Part shown: one piece after another, positions 12,742 through 18,515 of the stretch
Layout of the letters: every line of letters starts with the position of its first letter
Position numbering within the stretch: position 1 is the stretch's first letter
Assembly (NCBI GenBank): GCA_905479105.1
Contig: CAJQLE010000004.1
Location: forward strand, 434,001-498,000
Direction: 5' to 3'
DNA length: 64,000 nucleotides
Source of the DNA: an uncultured Flavobacteriales bacterium
GTDB taxonomy: Bacteria > Bacteroidota > Bacteroidia > Flavobacteriales_G > Salibacteraceae
The notes under the pieces: model-generated
Databases searched by the model: none
What the model saw: only the letters and a program-made list of their open reading frames with translations
What the model was told of the DNA's origin: nothing
Made by a program: the position numbers and the translations under genes

Positions 12742-13398
12742 ATGAAGGGATTTAAGAAGCCGTGGCCAACGAGAGATGCTATGGAGCAGATTTATAAGGA
12801 GAAACTTTGGGGCGGATCTGCATCTGATTTTTATTCCGGTGATGGATCGCATCATCCTGAGATCGTAAATCCTTATGTAGACATTGTAGGTTCATTCCTG
12901 AAGTCATTTGAAAGCCCTCTTAATATTTGTGACTTAGGTTGTGGTGATTTTAATGTTGGAAAAGAATTGGTGAAGTATGCCAATAAGTATGTTGCGATAG
13001 ATATCGTATCAGACCTCATAGATCGCAATAAAGAAAAGTTTCAAGAAGATAATCTAGAATTTCATTGTTTGGATATTGCAGTGGATGATTTGCCTTCTGG
13101 AGATTGTGCTTTATTAAGGCAAGTGCTTCAACATTTATCAAATTCTGAAGTGCAAAGCACACTGAGTAAGTTAACCGCCTTTAAGTATGTTGTACTAACC
13201 GAACATATCCCTAAAGGAGCTTTCATACCTAACAAAGAGATCATTTCAGGACAGGGAATTAGACTAAAAAAACAAAGTGGTTTAAACCTATTAGTTCCAC
13301 CTTTTAATTTTAAGGTAATAGAAGAAAAGCTGTTGGTGTCTCATGCTTTAGATGATGGGAAAGGGCTTGTAGTCACTACACTCTATACGTTGTTCTAA
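12742..13398 (+). CDS. Class I SAM-dependent methyltransferase
   Basis: A 218-residue cytosolic methyltransferase with motif I NICDLGCGDFNVGKEL (residues about 58-73), an acidic residue ending strand 2 (VAIDIVSD), and a motif IV-like CALLRQVLQHLSN. The N-terminal segment (WPTRDAMEQIYKEKLWGG) is an accessory cap seen in several bacterial small-molecule methyltransferases. The substrate is unknown. It is divergent from the GldH-like gene and stands alone. Function beyond methyl transfer from SAM is not deducible. Confidence 0.75.
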   Translation: MKGFKKPWPTRDAMEQIYKEKLWGGSASDFYSGDGSHHPEIVNPYVDIVGSFLKSFESPLNICDLGCGDFNVGKELVKYANKYVAIDIVSDLIDRNKEKFQEDNLEFHCLDIAVDDLPSGDCALLRQVLQHLSNSEVQSTLSKLTAFKYVVLTEHIPKGAFIPNKEIISGQGIRLKKQSGLNLLVPPFNFKVIEEKLLVSHALDDGKGLVVTTLYTLF

Positions 13399-13524
13399 AC
13401 GGTATTTATTTTGTCCACTTACGATTGAAGTTGAGTAGGGTTGAGGCCTCTCTTGATCTAAAAATTGGTCATATTTGAAGCCGACTTAAATACTTCAATC
13501 CAAAGTGTTATCCAATATACATCC

Positions 13525-13932
13525 ATGGAAGAACTTACACTAACTACACCAGCACTCTTGTTTTCGGCTATATCCCTCATCATGCTGGCTTATACCAATC
13601 GTTTTTTGGCCTACGCGGCAGTTATTAGAAACCTGAAAGACAAGTATTTGGAGAAAATGGATGATTCCCTGATCGAGCAGATTAAGAATCTGAGATTGAG
13701 GTTGAATTTAACACGCTACATGCAAATTTTTGGGATTACCAGTTTATTGCTTTGCGTACTAACCATGTTTTTAATCTATGTAGATTTCCATGTATTGGCT
13801 GTTTGGGTATTTGGTGCAGCCTTGTTACTCTTGATTCTTTCTTTAGCGCTGTTAATCAAAGAAATACAAATTTCAATTTATGCATTGAGTCTCCATTTAA
13901 GGGATATTGAAGAGCACTTAAAAGAGAAGTAA
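13525..13932 (+). CDS. DUF2721-family membrane protein
   Basis: A 135-residue protein with three hydrophobic segments: TPALLFSAISLIMLAYTNRF, then IFGITSLLLCVLTMFLIYVD and VWVFGAALLLLILSLALL. A charged loop with RNLKDKYLEK follows the first segment, and the protein ends in an amphipathic helix (DIEEHLKEK). This arrangement is that of DUF2721, small integral proteins of unknown role often next to envelope genes. ATG at 13525 is preferred; earlier in-frame codons would add a polar leader. It is the last clearly chromosomal gene before the integrase relics. Confidence 0.7.
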   Translation: MEELTLTTPALLFSAISLIMLAYTNRFLAYAAVIRNLKDKYLEKMDDSLIEQIKNLRLRLNLTRYMQIFGITSLLLCVLTMFLIYVDFHVLAVWVFGAALLLLILSLALLIKEIQISIYALSLHLRDIEEHLKEK

Positions 13933-13973
13933 ATAAGTGCTTTTGAATAAAATTCTTGAGGCCATCTGTGTAG

Positions 13974-14116
13974 CTGATTGACACCAATCAGACTCTATAC
14001 TCTTTTAGACACTCAGGGGCGATAGAAATCTACAAGCGCACAGGCTCATTAGTGAAGCTACAGAAGGTGATGAGTCACTCAAGTCTGAATGTTCCTTAAC
14101 TTATTTAAGGGATTAG
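13974..14116 (+). pseudogene. Tyrosine recombinase (integrase) 3' end, relic copy A
   Basis: Frame starting just after a stop reads LIDTNQTLYSFRHSGAIEIY, then KRTGSLVKLQKVMSHSSLNV. This is the C-terminal catalytic region of tyrosine recombinases: the Y-S-x-R-H-x-x-A box with the second catalytic Arg, then the L-G-H-S-S element. A one-base deletion after NV shifts the frame; in the next frame SLTYLRD-stop follows, including the expected catalytic Tyr. No N-terminal half exists upstream. It is homologous to the two later relics at 14688 and 15882. Confidence 0.75.
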
Positions 14117-14172
14117 AATTAAGTGCCAAAAGAAATCTTATATTTTCGTGCGTATTACGAATAACTAAAAAA

Positions 14173-14586
14173 ATGAAAATCAAAATCAAAACAATTTTTG
14201 TAGTAGTAGCAATACTGACAACTCTACAGATGCTTCCTTTAGCGATATCGTTGCTTAATGCTGATTTTAAAGCTATGTTACTTGCAGATATTTTTGGAGA
14301 AAATCCATCAGCTGATACCGTAAAATTCTTTGGTAATTTCGCAATGGTAGTTGGGACGCTAGTCATTGGTTTAATATTTTTATTGATTGGCTCTATGTCC
14401 TTCAAGGATGAGGCAACACTTAGAAGGTTGTCTTTTTTGTATAGTATTGTTTGGGGATTCTTCTGTATTCCAGATTTAATTTCTTTTATCACAAATGACG
14501 GAATGGCTGCGCCATTACCAGTTGTGATTATGGGAGTTGTCTCATTCGGACTTCTTCTTTATGGTTCAAAAAAAGGGACTGCTTAA
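14173..14586 (+). CDS. Small membrane protein of unknown function
   Basis: A 137-residue protein with four hydrophobic segments (about residues 5-25, 50-75, 85-105, 115-133), the first after a short basic start MKIKIKTIFVVVAI. I do not recognise a family. The ATG at 14173 is chosen since an earlier in-frame ATG (14089) lies inside the integrase relic and would add a non-hydrophobic leader. It is bracketed by integrase relics A and B and followed by its own terminator, so it looks like cargo of a former mobile element. Confidence 0.6.
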   Translation: MKIKIKTIFVVVAILTTLQMLPLAISLLNADFKAMLLADIFGENPSADTVKFFGNFAMVVGTLVIGLIFLLIGSMSFKDEATLRRLSFLYSIVWGFFCIPDLISFITNDGMAAPLPVVIMGVVSFGLLLYGSKKGTA

Positions 14587-14641
14587 AAGCTTATAACGCC
14601 CCCAATCAGGCGGGTTAGTACAGTTATCACTATTGAATATG

Positions 14642-14671
14642 AAGCATCTTCTTCGGAAGGGGCTTTTTTGT
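14642..14671 (+). terminator. Terminator with TTCG tetraloop
   Basis: GAAGCATCTTC-TTCG-GAAGGGGCTTTTTT forms a stem of about 9-10 bp with one mismatch and a G-T pair, capped by a TTCG loop and followed by six T. It follows the small membrane protein gene. Confidence 0.75.
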
Positions 14672-14687
14672 TTCCATATAGCAGGTA

Positions 14688-14771
14688 ATGGACGATATGA
14701 AAGTATCCCTAACCTACTTAAGGGGCTTAGAGGTAGCTGAATTAACCGAAGAGGATATGCCTAAGGTTTAG
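14688..14771 (+). pseudogene. Tyrosine recombinase 3' end, relic copy B
   Basis: A 27-codon open stretch, MDDMKVSLTYLRGLEVAELT followed by EEDMPKV and a stop. It is nearly identical in protein to the last residues of relic C (SLTYLRGLEVAELT, then EDDMPKV), including the catalytic Tyr context T-Y-L-R. The sequence upstream of 14688 is unrelated to the other copies, so homology begins abruptly. Confidence 0.7.
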
Positions 14772-15027
14772 ACAAACTCATTTTCACCTAAAATGCACCA
14801 TTTTCACCTCTTTTTGACCGTTTTCAGAGATTTTTGGCTCAAAAACACTCAAAAAACGTCCATTATCTCTCAAAATAAACAAAACCCTAAAACCTAAACC
14901 CTCAAATCACCTCGGGGGTGTGTGATTCTAAATCGGTTTCCAGTTTTCGATACGGTTTCCAGGGTATAGTATTACCCTATATGCCTAAGTATAGCATCGT
15001 CTTTATAATGCTCTGGTATCACACCAG
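14772..15027. other. Non-coding stretch with several short repeats
   Basis: No gene is seen. The stretch holds repeated TTTTCACCT (14780-14811), an ACCCTAAAACCTAAACCCT run, two direct copies of CGGTTTCCAG (14934-14943 and 14953-14962) and an inverted repeat GGGTA...TACCC (14962-14977). Such clusters are common around element ends, but no specific site is identified. Confidence 0.5.
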
Positions 15028-15723
15028 TTATTCGAAAATTACTTTTAAACTTGTTGTGATGTTTTGATTTGCATCTTTTGCATGAGGGTTTCGTGAGTAT
15101 CTCCATTCACTTGCATACTCAACTTCTACAAAAAATGTAGCAGTATCTCCTTTTAATTCTCCTAAATTGAAAATATTAAAAGTTGGATGTGTATTATATC
15201 TAGAGTAAACCCCAAATAAAGTACTAGAATAAGGACAATCCATACAAGTGTTTGGAGTGATTTCATATCCCACTAGATTCGTTACACTTTCACCATTTAA
15301 AATTAACCCATTAATCGAATACGTTGTATCCCCAATAGGTAGAGGGGTATTCATACTAGGTGTGCTATACCAACTCAAAATCCCATACATAGGGGTTGTA
15401 AATGAAATAGTATCAAAAGTTACCCAATAATCTGAATCTAATGTAACGCTTATATCAGGGATATCATTTATATGGTAAAAATCATAAGGTTCTTCTAATT
15501 CACCTATAATTTGAAAATATGACATTCCTCCTGTATAAACATGCCAATAACCCTCATCATCTAGATAGGCATCTGGTTGTTGTTGAGGATTAATTCCAAA
15601 ACTAGCATCACACCCCCCAGGACAAGCTGTATTAGGAGTATCTTCATAAGGGTCATATTTTTCACAACTTGCAAGGGCAAGAAATAGTAATGAAGCCCAA
15701 AACAACCTAACTATATCTTTCAT
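15028..15723 (-). CDS. Hypothetical lipoprotein, possible island cargo
   Basis: A 231-residue lipoprotein (signal MKDIVRLFWASLLFLALASC, Cys 20) with a Cys-rich segment after the anchor (TACPGGCDASFG) and a pair NTCMDCPYSS in the C-terminal third, followed by beta-rich sequence ending TTSLKVIFE. No family is recognised. ATG at 15723 places the lipobox correctly; an upstream ATG (15765) would add 14 residues. It sits between integrase relics B and C on the opposite strand, suggesting acquisition with a mobile element. Confidence 0.65.
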   Translation of the reverse strand: MKDIVRLFWASLLFLALASCEKYDPYEDTPNTACPGGCDASFGINPQQQPDAYLDDEGYWHVYTGGMSYFQIIGELEEPYDFYHINDIPDISVTLDSDYWVTFDTISFTTPMYGILSWYSTPSMNTPLPIGDTTYSINGLILNGESVTNLVGYEITPNTCMDCPYSSTLFGVYSRYNTHPTFNIFNLGELKGDTATFFVEVEYASEWRYSRNPHAKDANQNITTSLKVIFE

Positions 15724-15881
15724 CTTTTTATTTATTAAAAGCTTTATAAATTTCGTTAATATCAAAAGAAATAGTTGGTAGCTGTCTAATCAAGTCGCAT
15801 CTTTTTCTCGATGTCCTCAATACATATTCTTACTTAGAAAGTACTTTGAGAAAGGTATAGTTTTAATGGTTATGAAAAACA

Positions 15882-16011
15882 TATAAGCGTACAGGCTCAA
15901 TAGTGAAGCTACAGAAGGTTATGGGGTCATTCAAGCCTGAATGTGTCCTTAACTTACTTAAGGGGCTTAGAGGTAGCTGAATTAACCGAGGATGATATGC
16001 CTAAGGTCTGA
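15882..16011 (+). pseudogene. Tyrosine recombinase 3' end, relic copy C
   Basis: Reads YKRTGSIVKLQKVMG, then after removing one extra G in a run of four, HSSLNVSLTYLRGLEVAELT and EDDMPKV-stop. It is highly similar to relic A over KRTGS(L/I)VKLQKVM(S/G)HSSLNV and to relic B over its last 23 residues. So it bridges the two shorter copies and defines the end of the ancestral integrase. The frameshift and lack of upstream domain make it non-functional. Confidence 0.75.
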
Positions 16012-16030
16012 GGCTTTTGTTTGTTTGTAA

Positions 16031-16465
16031 TTAGGCCCTGTAATTAGATGAGCCAAAAGCTTCGCCATTCCCTGTTTGACAATATTGTCTTAGACTTTCA
16101 AGATATTTAGCTGAACTATAATTCATATTAGCGTAGGAATCGTCCATGTCACTAAAACCCTCATAAGTGTAACGAACCCTTGTTTTCCCATCGTTTTCAT
16201 CTAAGTCATATTTCATGATGTGTCCAACATTATCAAATTTAGACTCTACAACTTCGAGATGAACCGATTCGTTGTGGGTTAAGCTAATGACCTTGAACTT
16301 AAATTCCGCAAAATTTATAAATTCAATAGCTATAATTTCATCTAAGTTAAACTCACCACTCACTGAAGTGGTATACCATTTTGAAAGTTTATCTGCCTCA
16401 GTTAATGCCTGAAAGACTTCTTCTTTTGGGGAATTAATGTGCATCAGAAGTTTTATTGGAATCAT
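16031..16465 (-). CDS. SRPBCC/AHSA1-type domain protein
   Basis: A 144-residue protein beginning IPIKLLMHINSPKEEVFQAL, then ADKLSKWYTTSVSGEF, the strand-helix-strand opening of AHSA1-like START-superfamily proteins (V-x-A-P-x-x-V-x-x-A-L-x-x-x-x-x-L-x-x-W). Family members bind hydrophobic ligands or assist Hsp90; most bacterial ones have no known ligand. The cavity-lining C-terminal helix is represented by SSAKYLESLRQYC. It starts about 20 bp past integrase relic C on the opposite strand and ends close to it, so it may be island cargo. Confidence 0.7.
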   Translation of the reverse strand: MIPIKLLMHINSPKEEVFQALTEADKLSKWYTTSVSGEFNLDEIIAIEFINFAEFKFKVISLTHNESVHLEVVESKFDNVGHIMKYDLDENDGKTRVRYTYEGFSDMDDSYANMNYSSAKYLESLRQYCQTGNGEAFGSSNYRA

Positions 16466-16504
16466 ATGATTTGTGTTGATTAAAAAATAAAAATATAAAA
16501 TACT

Positions 16505-17326
16505 TTAACACCCAGGATAGAACACTTTAAATAGATATTTAAAAGCGAGTTGCACGTAAGTCTTATTGGTGTCAACCTTTTGAATTGGCTCATTAATCTC
16601 AGGAACTTCAAATTCGTTTCTATAGAATGATATTGTCCACCCAATAAGTTTATCAAAGTCCGTTTCACTTAGAATGATGCGATGACGTCTCGGACATTTT
16701 TTTTGAAAAAAGTCAAAGTGCTTCATCACCCTTTCCGCAATATCATCCGAAATATCCTCAATAACTGGTTCAGCTATATCCTGAATCTTAGAAGTCTTGA
16801 TTAGCGAATCTAGATCATCTAGAATTGATAGCACAAGGCGATAGTACTGAAGGTAATTACTTATGTCATGATCTTGTTTGATTGCCAGTTCTGTGCCTGA
16901 CGTATTTAGCCCAATAGAGTATCTATAGTACGTATATACCTTTTCTCCTGGTGGCGCCCCCATGTATATCAACTCACCTTCCTCCTCGCACTTCAATAAC
17001 CTTTTCAGACTAGAAACGGTCAATCCAAAAACATCATTGACAAAGTCAGTATTGGCCGCATAAAGGAATCTCCTCTTGTAAGTTTTGTGAAGGTCTTTTA
17101 CTATATCATTGAAAAGGGGGATTTCAATGATCTTGAGAAACTGAATACTTTGAGTGTACTCTAAACGGTAATTGTCCATGAATGGATCTGTCTCCTTGAA
17201 CTCTAACCATCGGTGCAAGGCTTCAATCTCCTCAGTGGAGGTTTTAGTATATTCCTTAATCACTGAATTTGTGCCGATAATAAATTTATTAGCAAAGAGA
17301 TTATGGGATCCTAGTGTATCAATCAT
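16505..17326 (-). CDS. Hypothetical cytosolic protein (DUF6617-like?)
   Basis: A 273-residue soluble protein without signal or membrane segments, rich in charged helices. The C-terminal third contains PRRHRIILSETDFDKLIGWT and NEFEVPEINEPIQKVDTNK, a conserved-looking block that I associate, without certainty, with a Bacteroidota-specific family of unknown function found in accessory regions. A single pair of Cys occurs near the end (CPRR and PGC). It lies between the integrase relics and tRNA-Leu, which suggests cargo. Function unknown. Confidence 0.55.
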   Translation of the reverse strand: MIDTLGSHNLFANKFIIGTNSVIKEYTKTSTEEIEALHRWLEFKETDPFMDNYRLEYTQSIQFLKIIEIPLFNDIVKDLHKTYKRRFLYAANTDFVNDVFGLTVSSLKRLLKCEEEGELIYMGAPPGEKVYTYYRYSIGLNTSGTELAIKQDHDISNYLQYYRLVLSILDDLDSLIKTSKIQDIAEPVIEDISDDIAERVMKHFDFFQKKCPRRHRIILSETDFDKLIGWTISFYRNEFEVPEINEPIQKVDTNKTYVQLAFKYLFKVFYPGC

Positions 17327-17486
17327 GGACTAATTTGAATTTTGCTAAATCGTCTTACTTATCGAAAGTAGTTCTTAAGAGATAATCAGCTGCCCAAGAT
17401 CTGAATTTGCTGAGCCAACAGAGCAACTTCCAGTTGTATGTCGGCCCAATCCTAGTAAACCAACAATTGTAAAGCCAATGTTTTGA

Positions 17487-17512
17487 GCATACTTTGTATG
17501 CAAATAGTATGC
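17487..17512. repeat. Inverted and direct repeat of GTATGC beside tRNA-Leu
   Basis: GCATAC-TTT-GTATGC is a perfect inverted repeat, followed five bases later by a third GTATGC; each GTATGC is followed by AAAT. It lies about 65 bp past the 3' end of the tRNA, between it and the accessory genes. This resembles a recombinase core but is unproven. Confidence 0.5.
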
Positions 17513-17520
17513 AAATGCCT

Positions 17521-17565
17521 TTAATTAAAAAAGGGTCTCAAGAATTAATCATCCTGAAACCCTTT
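17521..17565 (-). terminator. Terminator of tRNA-Leu
   Basis: On the minus strand AAAGGGTTTCA pairs with TGAGACCCTTTTTT around a 14-base loop, directly downstream of the tRNA. Stem of 10-11 bp with a T tract. Confidence 0.75.
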
Positions 17566-17577
17566 GTTTACATGGTG

Positions 17578-17659
17578 TGCCCGGGACTGGACTCGAACCA
17601 GCACGTCTTGCGACACACGCCCCTCAAGCGTGCGCGTCTACCAATTTCGCCACCCGGGC
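17578..17659 (-). tRNA. tRNA-Leu (anticodon GAG)
   Basis: Minus-strand sequence starts GCCCGGGTGGCGAAATTGG and ends with the T-arm GGTTCGAGTCC and acceptor strand CCCGGGC plus discriminator A. The anticodon stem CACGC/GCGTG encloses TTGAGGG, giving GAG (reads CUC/CUU Leu codons). The long variable arm expected of tRNA-Leu is present (TGTCGCAAGACG). The 82-nt gene does not encode a 3' CCA directly after the discriminator. Confidence 0.95.
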
Positions 17660-17684
17660 AAGTATTGGTTTTTTAATAGGGGCG

Positions 17685-17692
17685 CAAATGTA
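17685..17692 (-). promoter_or_regulatory. -7 box of the tRNA-Leu promoter (TACATTTG)
   Basis: A perfect TAnnTTTG on the minus strand ends about 25 bp upstream of the mature tRNA 5' end, as expected for a short tRNA leader. Confidence 0.6.
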
Positions 17693-17726
17693 GGAATTAT
17701 CCATTTTCGCAGTTCGGAATTATAAA

Positions 17727-18515
17727 ATGAACTTGCTTAATACTTCTTTGGATTTTATTCGTCATCGGTTTTCCTCTAAAACGAGGCATGGTGTGCATTC
17801 TCCGTTTGTCTATTCCTTGATTGATCAATGTGTGTACAGTTCAAATCCAAAGCCAGCAAAAGAGCTTATTCGACTTTTTGATAAAATGAAGTCTAGCGAT
17901 CGGCTTTTAACGGGGATGGACTATGGACAGAAACAAGAAACTTCAGTTTCAGTATCTCACTATGCCAAAAGATCTTCAATGCCAGATTTTCAAGTAAGGC
18001 TCTTGCATCGATTGGTATCTTACTTCAAACCTGATTCAATACTCGAACTAGGAACTAATTTGGGTAAATCATTGGCAGCGATGGCATCGGCTAGTCCTGA
18101 ATCAAAAGCAATAGGAGTGGAGGGCAATTCAAGTATTGCTCAATTCGCGAATAAAAACATAAAGCAGCTCGGCTTGGTCAATGCTGGGGTAACGTGTGAC
18201 TCGTTTGACTCCTTTCTTGAAAAGAATCAAAACTCGTTTGACCTAATCTTCCTGGATGGCGATCATCACTATGAGCCAACCATGCGATATTTTAAAGCCA
18301 TTAAGGAGGTTTTAAACGATGGAGGTGTCATTGTACTTCATGATCTCTATTACTCTGAAGGAATGAAGCAGGCGTGGGCTGAAATAAAAAAAGACCGAAA
18401 CGTGACAATCACGATCGATCTTTTCTTTTTTGGTTTGGTGTGGATTGATAAAAGCCAGGCTAAAGAAAACTTTAGCATCCAGTTTCCATCATCACTTTTT
18501 AGCGTCTTCTTTTAG
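17727..18515 (+). CDS. Class I SAM-dependent O-methyltransferase-like protein
   Basis: A 262-residue enzyme whose N-terminus (RHGVHSPFVYSLIDQCVY) is a lid typical of a Bacteroidota methyltransferase group. The Rossmann core has motif I SILELGTNLGKSLAAMA (about residue 110), an acidic strand-2 end (AIGVEG) and LIFLDGDHHYEPTMRYF, the D-G-x-H-x-Y-x-x-x-x-D-like motif of catechol-type and CmcI-like methyltransferases. The substrate is unknown. It overlaps the convergent thioredoxin-family gene by 24 bp and stands alone just after the tRNA. Confidence 0.75.
   Translation: MNLLNTSLDFIRHRFSSKTRHGVHSPFVYSLIDQCVYSSNPKPAKELIRLFDKMKSSDRLLTGMDYGQKQETSVSVSHYAKRSSMPDFQVRLLHRLVSYFKPDSILELGTNLGKSLAAMASASPESKAIGVEGNSSIAQFANKNIKQLGLVNAGVTCDSFDSFLEKNQNSFDLIFLDGDHHYEPTMRYFKAIKEVLNDGGVIVLHDLYYSEGMKQAWAEIKKDRNVTITIDLFFFGLVWIDKSQAKENFSIQFPSSLFSVFF

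Follow-up and report, generated by a model that had tools for sequence, protein, structure and literature searches.

Does a cluster of truncated integrase ends mark old insertions that have decayed, or is it the remnant of a system that gathers genes? The question is raised by a stretch of 64,000 nucleotides from an uncultured marine Flavobacteriales bacterium (the window, here always the whole stretch analysed), in which three copies of one tyrosine-recombinase 3′ end, termed A, B and C, alternate with small genes of other kinds. The copies are not random debris. The window probably holds a decayed piece of a cassette array that has no integrase of its own, and the full system is likely to be a tRNA island whose integrase-tail (int-tail) site would capture cassettes by recombination at a short core.

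Three integrase tails and one core in the window

The features are listed in Table 1. All three copies named in the preliminary description are recovered by BLASTN against an intact integrase gene (int), with E-values of 1e-23 to 1e-50. Homology of A to int stops at the core. B corresponds to int nt 992–1065 and then to downstream-of-int DNA as far as nt 1273, so that past its stop codon the homology extends about 235 bp and into a second repeat, REP. C, which reaches about nt 1061–1065, is 92–93% identical to intact int. The copies are thus integrase tails, as had been proposed, with two differences in detail: a frameshift in C puts the KRTGS and SLTYLRG parts in different frames, and B continues into REP. 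The gene content is as first described, i.e. a membrane gene, a lipoprotein gene, an AHSA1-like gene and an unassigned gene, and the membrane and lipoprotein genes have no Pfam match. The earlier observation that the N-terminal half of the integrase is missing also holds, as neither an int nor an N-terminal half was found in the window.

Table 1. Features of the integrase-tail block and its tRNA-proximal flank, in window coordinates
Feature	Position	Strand	Basis or remark
Copy A, left half of int 3′-end site	13972–14111	+	BLASTN to intact ints 91–94%; = int nt 878–1018
Core of A, inverted repeat CCTTAACTTATTTAAGG, int codons S-L-T-Y-L-R	14094–14110	+	
Inserted cassette 1, 596 bp, between A and B cores	14111–14706	+	Gap-free joint alignment
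Cassette 1 gene, small membrane protein	14173–14586	+	No Pfam family
Copy B, right half of site, up to int stop codon	14698–14771	+	Homology starts at core 14707–14723
Downstream-of-int region including ~150-bp second repeat REP	14772–15020	+	REP profile match 14850–15005
Lipoprotein cassette gene	15028–15723	−	Cassette body about 14883–15827
Copy C, int 3′-end site with both halves, frameshifted	15882–16011	+	Int nt 937–1065; core 15947–15963
AHSA1-like gene after C, possible cassette cargo	16031–16465	−	PF08327, E = 5.9e-8
Unassigned gene adjoining tRNA-Leu	16505–17326	−	99% identity to a tRNA-Leu flank in G009; homologues in L039 and L042
tRNA-Leu(GAG)	17577–17659	−	ARAGORN; orientation matches far end of intact islands

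A ends and B starts at one 17-bp near-palindrome, CCYTAACYTAYTTAAGG, whose codons S-L-T-Y-L-R surround the catalytic Tyr337. Almost every int-tail copy in the window's genus spans the 17-bp near-palindrome CCYTAACNTAYTTAAGG (int nt 1001–1017), and the start of homology is at or immediately behind the core in B and in the copies L039+4628, L032+9159 and those of L042. The left part of A, the core and the right part of B together align over 397 nt to the intact gene and the DNA that follows it. There is no gap at the joint once the 596 bp are removed, and therefore cassette 1 was inserted precisely at the core. The corresponding product structure, a complete int followed by a gene and an int tail, is present in locus L033. 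The left edges of int-tail copies are scattered from −75 to −30, however, which does not fix the exact crossover and tells against the preferred reading.

In three other loci (L032 7711–8703, L034 13147–14190 and L136) a different sequence takes the place of the integrase C-terminus, from a point close to the core on one side or the other. These integrases were likely broken by insertion at their own end.

The intact integrase and its tRNA islands

The search for an intact integrase ending in the motif of the tails led to a gene in the same genome. It encodes 354 amino acids with the C-terminus KRTGSLVKLQKVMGHSSLNVSLTYLRGLEVAELTEADMPKV and lies at C3:175009–176070 in a tRNA-Met island (L010:15006–16070, minus strand; G000:C3). 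It is the only intact copy in that genome, all others being tails only. The island is about 16.6 kb in length and consists of a tRNA 3′ half, int, cargo separated by REP copies, and an intact tRNA. Cargo between two of its REP copies includes a type I restriction-modification operon and a putative metallo-hydrolase gene (L010 1844–9312).

Close relatives of this integrase (95–97% protein identity) occupy tRNA-Met and tRNA-Asn in congeners, where a core gene is only 67–68% identical at the DNA level, and the islands therefore pass from one species to another. Among 84,980 species genomes scanned, 65 related integrases were found, nearly all from marine Flavobacteriales and other Bacteroidota; integrases of the window's family are found in 12 of 395 sampled genomes of the class. 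Part of a tRNA gene (Met, Asn, Arg, His, Ala, Leu, Pro or Val) is found at most 450 nt upstream of int in 50 of the 55 relatives with readable upstream DNA, and an intact far-end tRNA was found in the C3, L032, L033 and L040 islands. These are the two ends of a tRNA-site genomic island; the window has the far tRNA-Leu only. Judged from sequence, the order of the full island is tRNA 3′ half, int, small cargo genes separated by int 3′-end copies, and intact tRNA.

The protein carries the motif R..K..[HY]xxR..[HW]..Y of lambda-type tyrosine recombinases. R214, K242, Y302 and R305 are invariant, and H328 and Y337 invariant or nearly so, in the two alignments made (A2/A3). A phage or satellite origin was considered and rejected, as IMG/VR viral contigs contain no close relative of the integrase (best identity 34–36%). 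A conserved 149-aa gene, MSRTSWSDDDLEKLSRKKNHRVRYNGH, immediately precedes the intact far-end tRNA in the C3 island (L009/L010) and in those of L040, L039 and L031; its product could be an excision factor or a site-binding protein.

Intact islands end in a full tRNA on the same strand relative to int as the tRNA-Leu of the window. This far-end tRNA suggests that the window piece may once have been part of a tRNA-Leu island, and A, B and C together with the tRNA-Leu are best read as an integrase-less, decaying array. The unassigned gene between them probably belongs to a different tRNA-Leu element, and its homologues adjoin another tyrosine recombinase in L039 and L042. The segment 16772–17664, which comprises part of this gene and the tRNA, is 99% identical to G009:C1:407156–408048, whereas a neighbouring gene is only about 68% identical; it marks a very recent transfer at tRNA-Leu, probably by another integrase. 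Between the same flanks G003 has 12 kb of other genes, the G009 locus has been rearranged, and the surroundings of tRNA-Leu are different in most congeners. As a whole, the window block is present in no congener examined, and the intact integrase matches the tails at its C-terminus; neither of the two outcomes that the preliminary description had named as contrary to its reading, a non-matching integrase or a block kept as one stable unit, was thus encountered.

Integrase-tail arrays and the movement of cassettes

The tails are a recurrent feature of this integrase family. Of 40 loci with a complete int, mostly from marine Flavobacteriales, 19 contain further copies of its final 75 nt (49 copies), and as a control for position, no other 75-nt segment of int is repeated in more than three of the 40. 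When 51 copies are compared with their own int, 70–92% of positions agree from −36 to the stop codon; identity drops to background right after the stop codon and fades leftward towards the core. Regular arrays are found in L073 (seven sites in 5 kb), L075 (six), L068 (five) and L076 (three). On a distant branch (L035/L099, int 41% identical) the repeat is a 94-bp sequence just behind the int stop codon, at 97% identity. Arrays are common but not universal. The int-tail repeat is absent in 21 of the 40 loci, several of which have little downstream sequence; L056, L083 and L133 have at least 9 kb downstream of int and no repeat, which counts against the preferred reading. Three further int loci served as an independent check: L133 has no repeat in 9.7 kb downstream, and the other two end within 0.7 kb.

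About a dozen int-tail copies within 20 kb are present in L100, on a 1.1-Mb contig that also has a 1.7-kb direct duplication at 99% identity.

Two origins had been suggested for the repeated 3′ ends, serial insertions of whole elements that each left a tail, and recombination with the int end as target. In the first case, complete related islands would have inserted one after another at the tRNA and decayed, tails being left by chance. Tandem islands do exist: at L031 8185–11315, a decayed N-terminal int fragment at tRNA-Met is followed by the 149-aa gene with the island end and by a second intact int. Nevertheless, serial insertion is quite improbable. It fits poorly with tails in 19 loci versus three or fewer for any other part of int, and with single-gene cassettes of a few hundred base pairs between tails; N-terminal remnants almost never accompany the tails, which carry their own left arm and lie at fixed distances from the cargo start and stop codons. 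The second suggestion has fared well, as the breakpoints fall at one core, the reconstructed empty site is gap-free, and the same 3′-end repeats delimit cassettes in about 20 other loci.

The anatomy of the cassettes was determined from 32 cassettes of 11 loci. Their median length is 934 bp, and 36 of 41 genes are reversed relative to int. The cargo encodes mostly small secreted or membrane proteins, several of them SnoaL-like/DUF4440. At 13 of 72 sites a reversed open reading frame stops exactly at −3, inside the int stop codon, where about 0.2 would be expected; on the cassette strand, therefore, the site follows the gene at once, as attC follows an integron cassette gene. Small cassettes in an array, with a site where each gene ends, are one of the marks of an integron and are present here. 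In 18 of the 32 cassettes the start codon is 73–122 nt before the end of the next site, and from this near-constant distance the left arm probably holds a promoter. The spacing might also suggest that the sites are promoter or terminator modules copied along with genes, the match to int being a by-product. This is very improbable, since it accounts neither for a shared part that consists of int coding sequence and stops where int does, nor for the movement of whole cassettes between genomes with ends at the R-arm start and the next core.

Such movement is seen in L057, where three consecutive segments each match one complete cassette of another locus, L073 (88%), L080 (77%) and L064 (77%). The segments are bounded by the R-arm start (−26 to −37) and by the next core (−61 to −66), with degenerate sites separating one from another. 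The cassettes of the window are also shared. In L053, from a different Flavobacteriales genome with an int 67% identical, a homologue of the membrane gene (51%) makes up the first cassette after int, and L074 has a second homologue (56%) at a distance of 9 kb downstream of its int; the lipoprotein cassette recurs in other contexts in G010:C7 (85%) and G004:C5 (89%). Within the genus, cassettes of 1.6–1.8 kb are 94–97% identical while their order and neighbours differ in G000, G004 and G010, and the core gene in this genus is only 67–68% identical. What is seen of excision and insertion are the rearranged products; neither an excised circle nor a strain pair with and without a single cassette was observed, a point against the preferred reading.

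REP, the second repeat, is about 150 bp in length, with about 30 copies in congeneric genomes, of which eight are elsewhere in the window's genome. In the window's genus it is a commoner separator than the int tail and the gene orientation is mixed; the lipoprotein cassette, for example, is inverted in G004. Both findings weigh against the preferred reading. A 4.6-kb module with a different tyrosine recombinase (L039, reverse complement, 12863–17482; L042, reverse complement, 13384–18000) is 91% identical between two congeners and adjoins REP-bearing arrays in both.

The main rival explanation is RecA-type exchange, whereby int tails and REP are mere homology arms left from earlier island insertions and genes are shuffled between them with no site-specific step. 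REP edges are ragged and flanks mix and match over the whole REP length, long direct repeats flank some cargo (184 nt in L033, 118 nt in C3), and the direct duplication in L100 also speaks for this explanation. On the other hand, the shared site in other families is only 35–60 bp, which is short for efficient homologous recombination, and one core-to-stop segment is used across integrases that are only 40–60% identical. The single exact offset at which stop codons overlap the site and the exact A/B joints also argue against it, and RecA-dependent shuffling as the whole explanation appears unlikely.

A proposed capture mechanism and its relation to known systems

Under the preferred reading, capture at the int end, the recombination site would be the last ~65 bp of int, which begin with the near-palindromic core around the codon of the catalytic tyrosine and end with the stop codon. 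In its free form a cassette would comprise a gene, its own left arm, the core and the int tail. Cassettes may move in trans as circles that carry core and int tail; recombination at the core, with the island's own Int as the putative catalyst of cassette exchange, would slot the cassette behind int and simultaneously make the int reading frame complete again at its end, in the way that a tRNA is restored by the elements that target it. This reading is weakest in that the int-tail core is unlike the tRNA anticodon site presumed for Int, and a single enzyme would have to accept two dissimilar substrates.

Integrons are regarded as the bacterial platform for cassette capture, and are found by searches for IntI and folded attC sites. 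The arrays described here resemble them in having a tyrosine recombinase gene, a neighbouring site, and short cassettes, most of them with a single gene whose 3′ end adjoins the site; cassettes are common to several genomes in changed order, and clusters without an integrase exist, as in the window. That the arrays are true integrons can nonetheless be given hardly any credence, this shared logic notwithstanding. Pfam reports only PF00589 for the integrase, the best NCBIfam match is XerA-type (27 bits, cut-off 220), and neither database gives an integron-integrase match above cut-off. The model of the protein matches Tn1549 Int, a solved integron integrase, XerA and lambda Int at Z 15–16; the lambda Int alignment covers residues 7–353, and with an arm-binding type N-terminus the domain layout is lambda-Int-like. 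The 50 array sites have no conserved hairpin on either strand (mean z −0.11 for one and +0.19 for the other), and the alifold energy of REP is near zero. Thus the two defining features, an IntI-type integrase and a folded attC, were both looked for and not found. In addition, int points towards the array, its own coding 3′ end serves as the site, the cassettes appear to carry their own promoters and are read towards int, and the platform is itself a tRNA-inserted island.

The islands share with tRNA-targeting genomic islands and tycheposon-like elements the integrase beside a tRNA 3′ half, the cargo, the far intact tRNA and the anticodon-loop att site, but inside them a further set of repeats, which stem from the 3′ end of int, delimits single cargo genes. 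Some elements insert at the 3′ end of a gene and bring a replacement end, with icd, guaA and similar genes as targets. There too the incoming copy regenerates the end of the target gene; here the target is the integrase itself, and many small cassettes stack there. A recombination site inside the integrase gene is also found in the suicidal SSV1-type archaeal integrases, where integration of the whole element splits int. In the present islands int is complete beside the tRNA half, and insertion at its very 3′ end would restore it, so that int is kept. Recombinases that disrupt their own gene are found only in archaea according to a passage of one review (PMC8371274).

No report of such arrays was found in open full-text papers, a search field outside which most subscription journals and preprints lie. 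Related arrays in many ocean Flavobacteriales seem not to have been described before, and there is a fair chance that they constitute a separate kind of cassette platform. On balance, we favour the view that marine Flavobacteriales have a gene-capture platform independent of integrons, in which a lambda-type Int would insert its island at tRNA anticodon loops and collect cassettes at its own 3′ end, restoring its C-terminal tail each time.

If this is correct, one integrase would act on its own gene as well as on another, very different substrate, and cassette capture would have evolved more than once. Ocean Flavobacteriales would harbour an unrelated platform with integron logic, invisible to IntI and attC searches, and this would explain part of their flexible gene content, such as SnoaL-like secreted proteins, lipoproteins and a type I restriction system.
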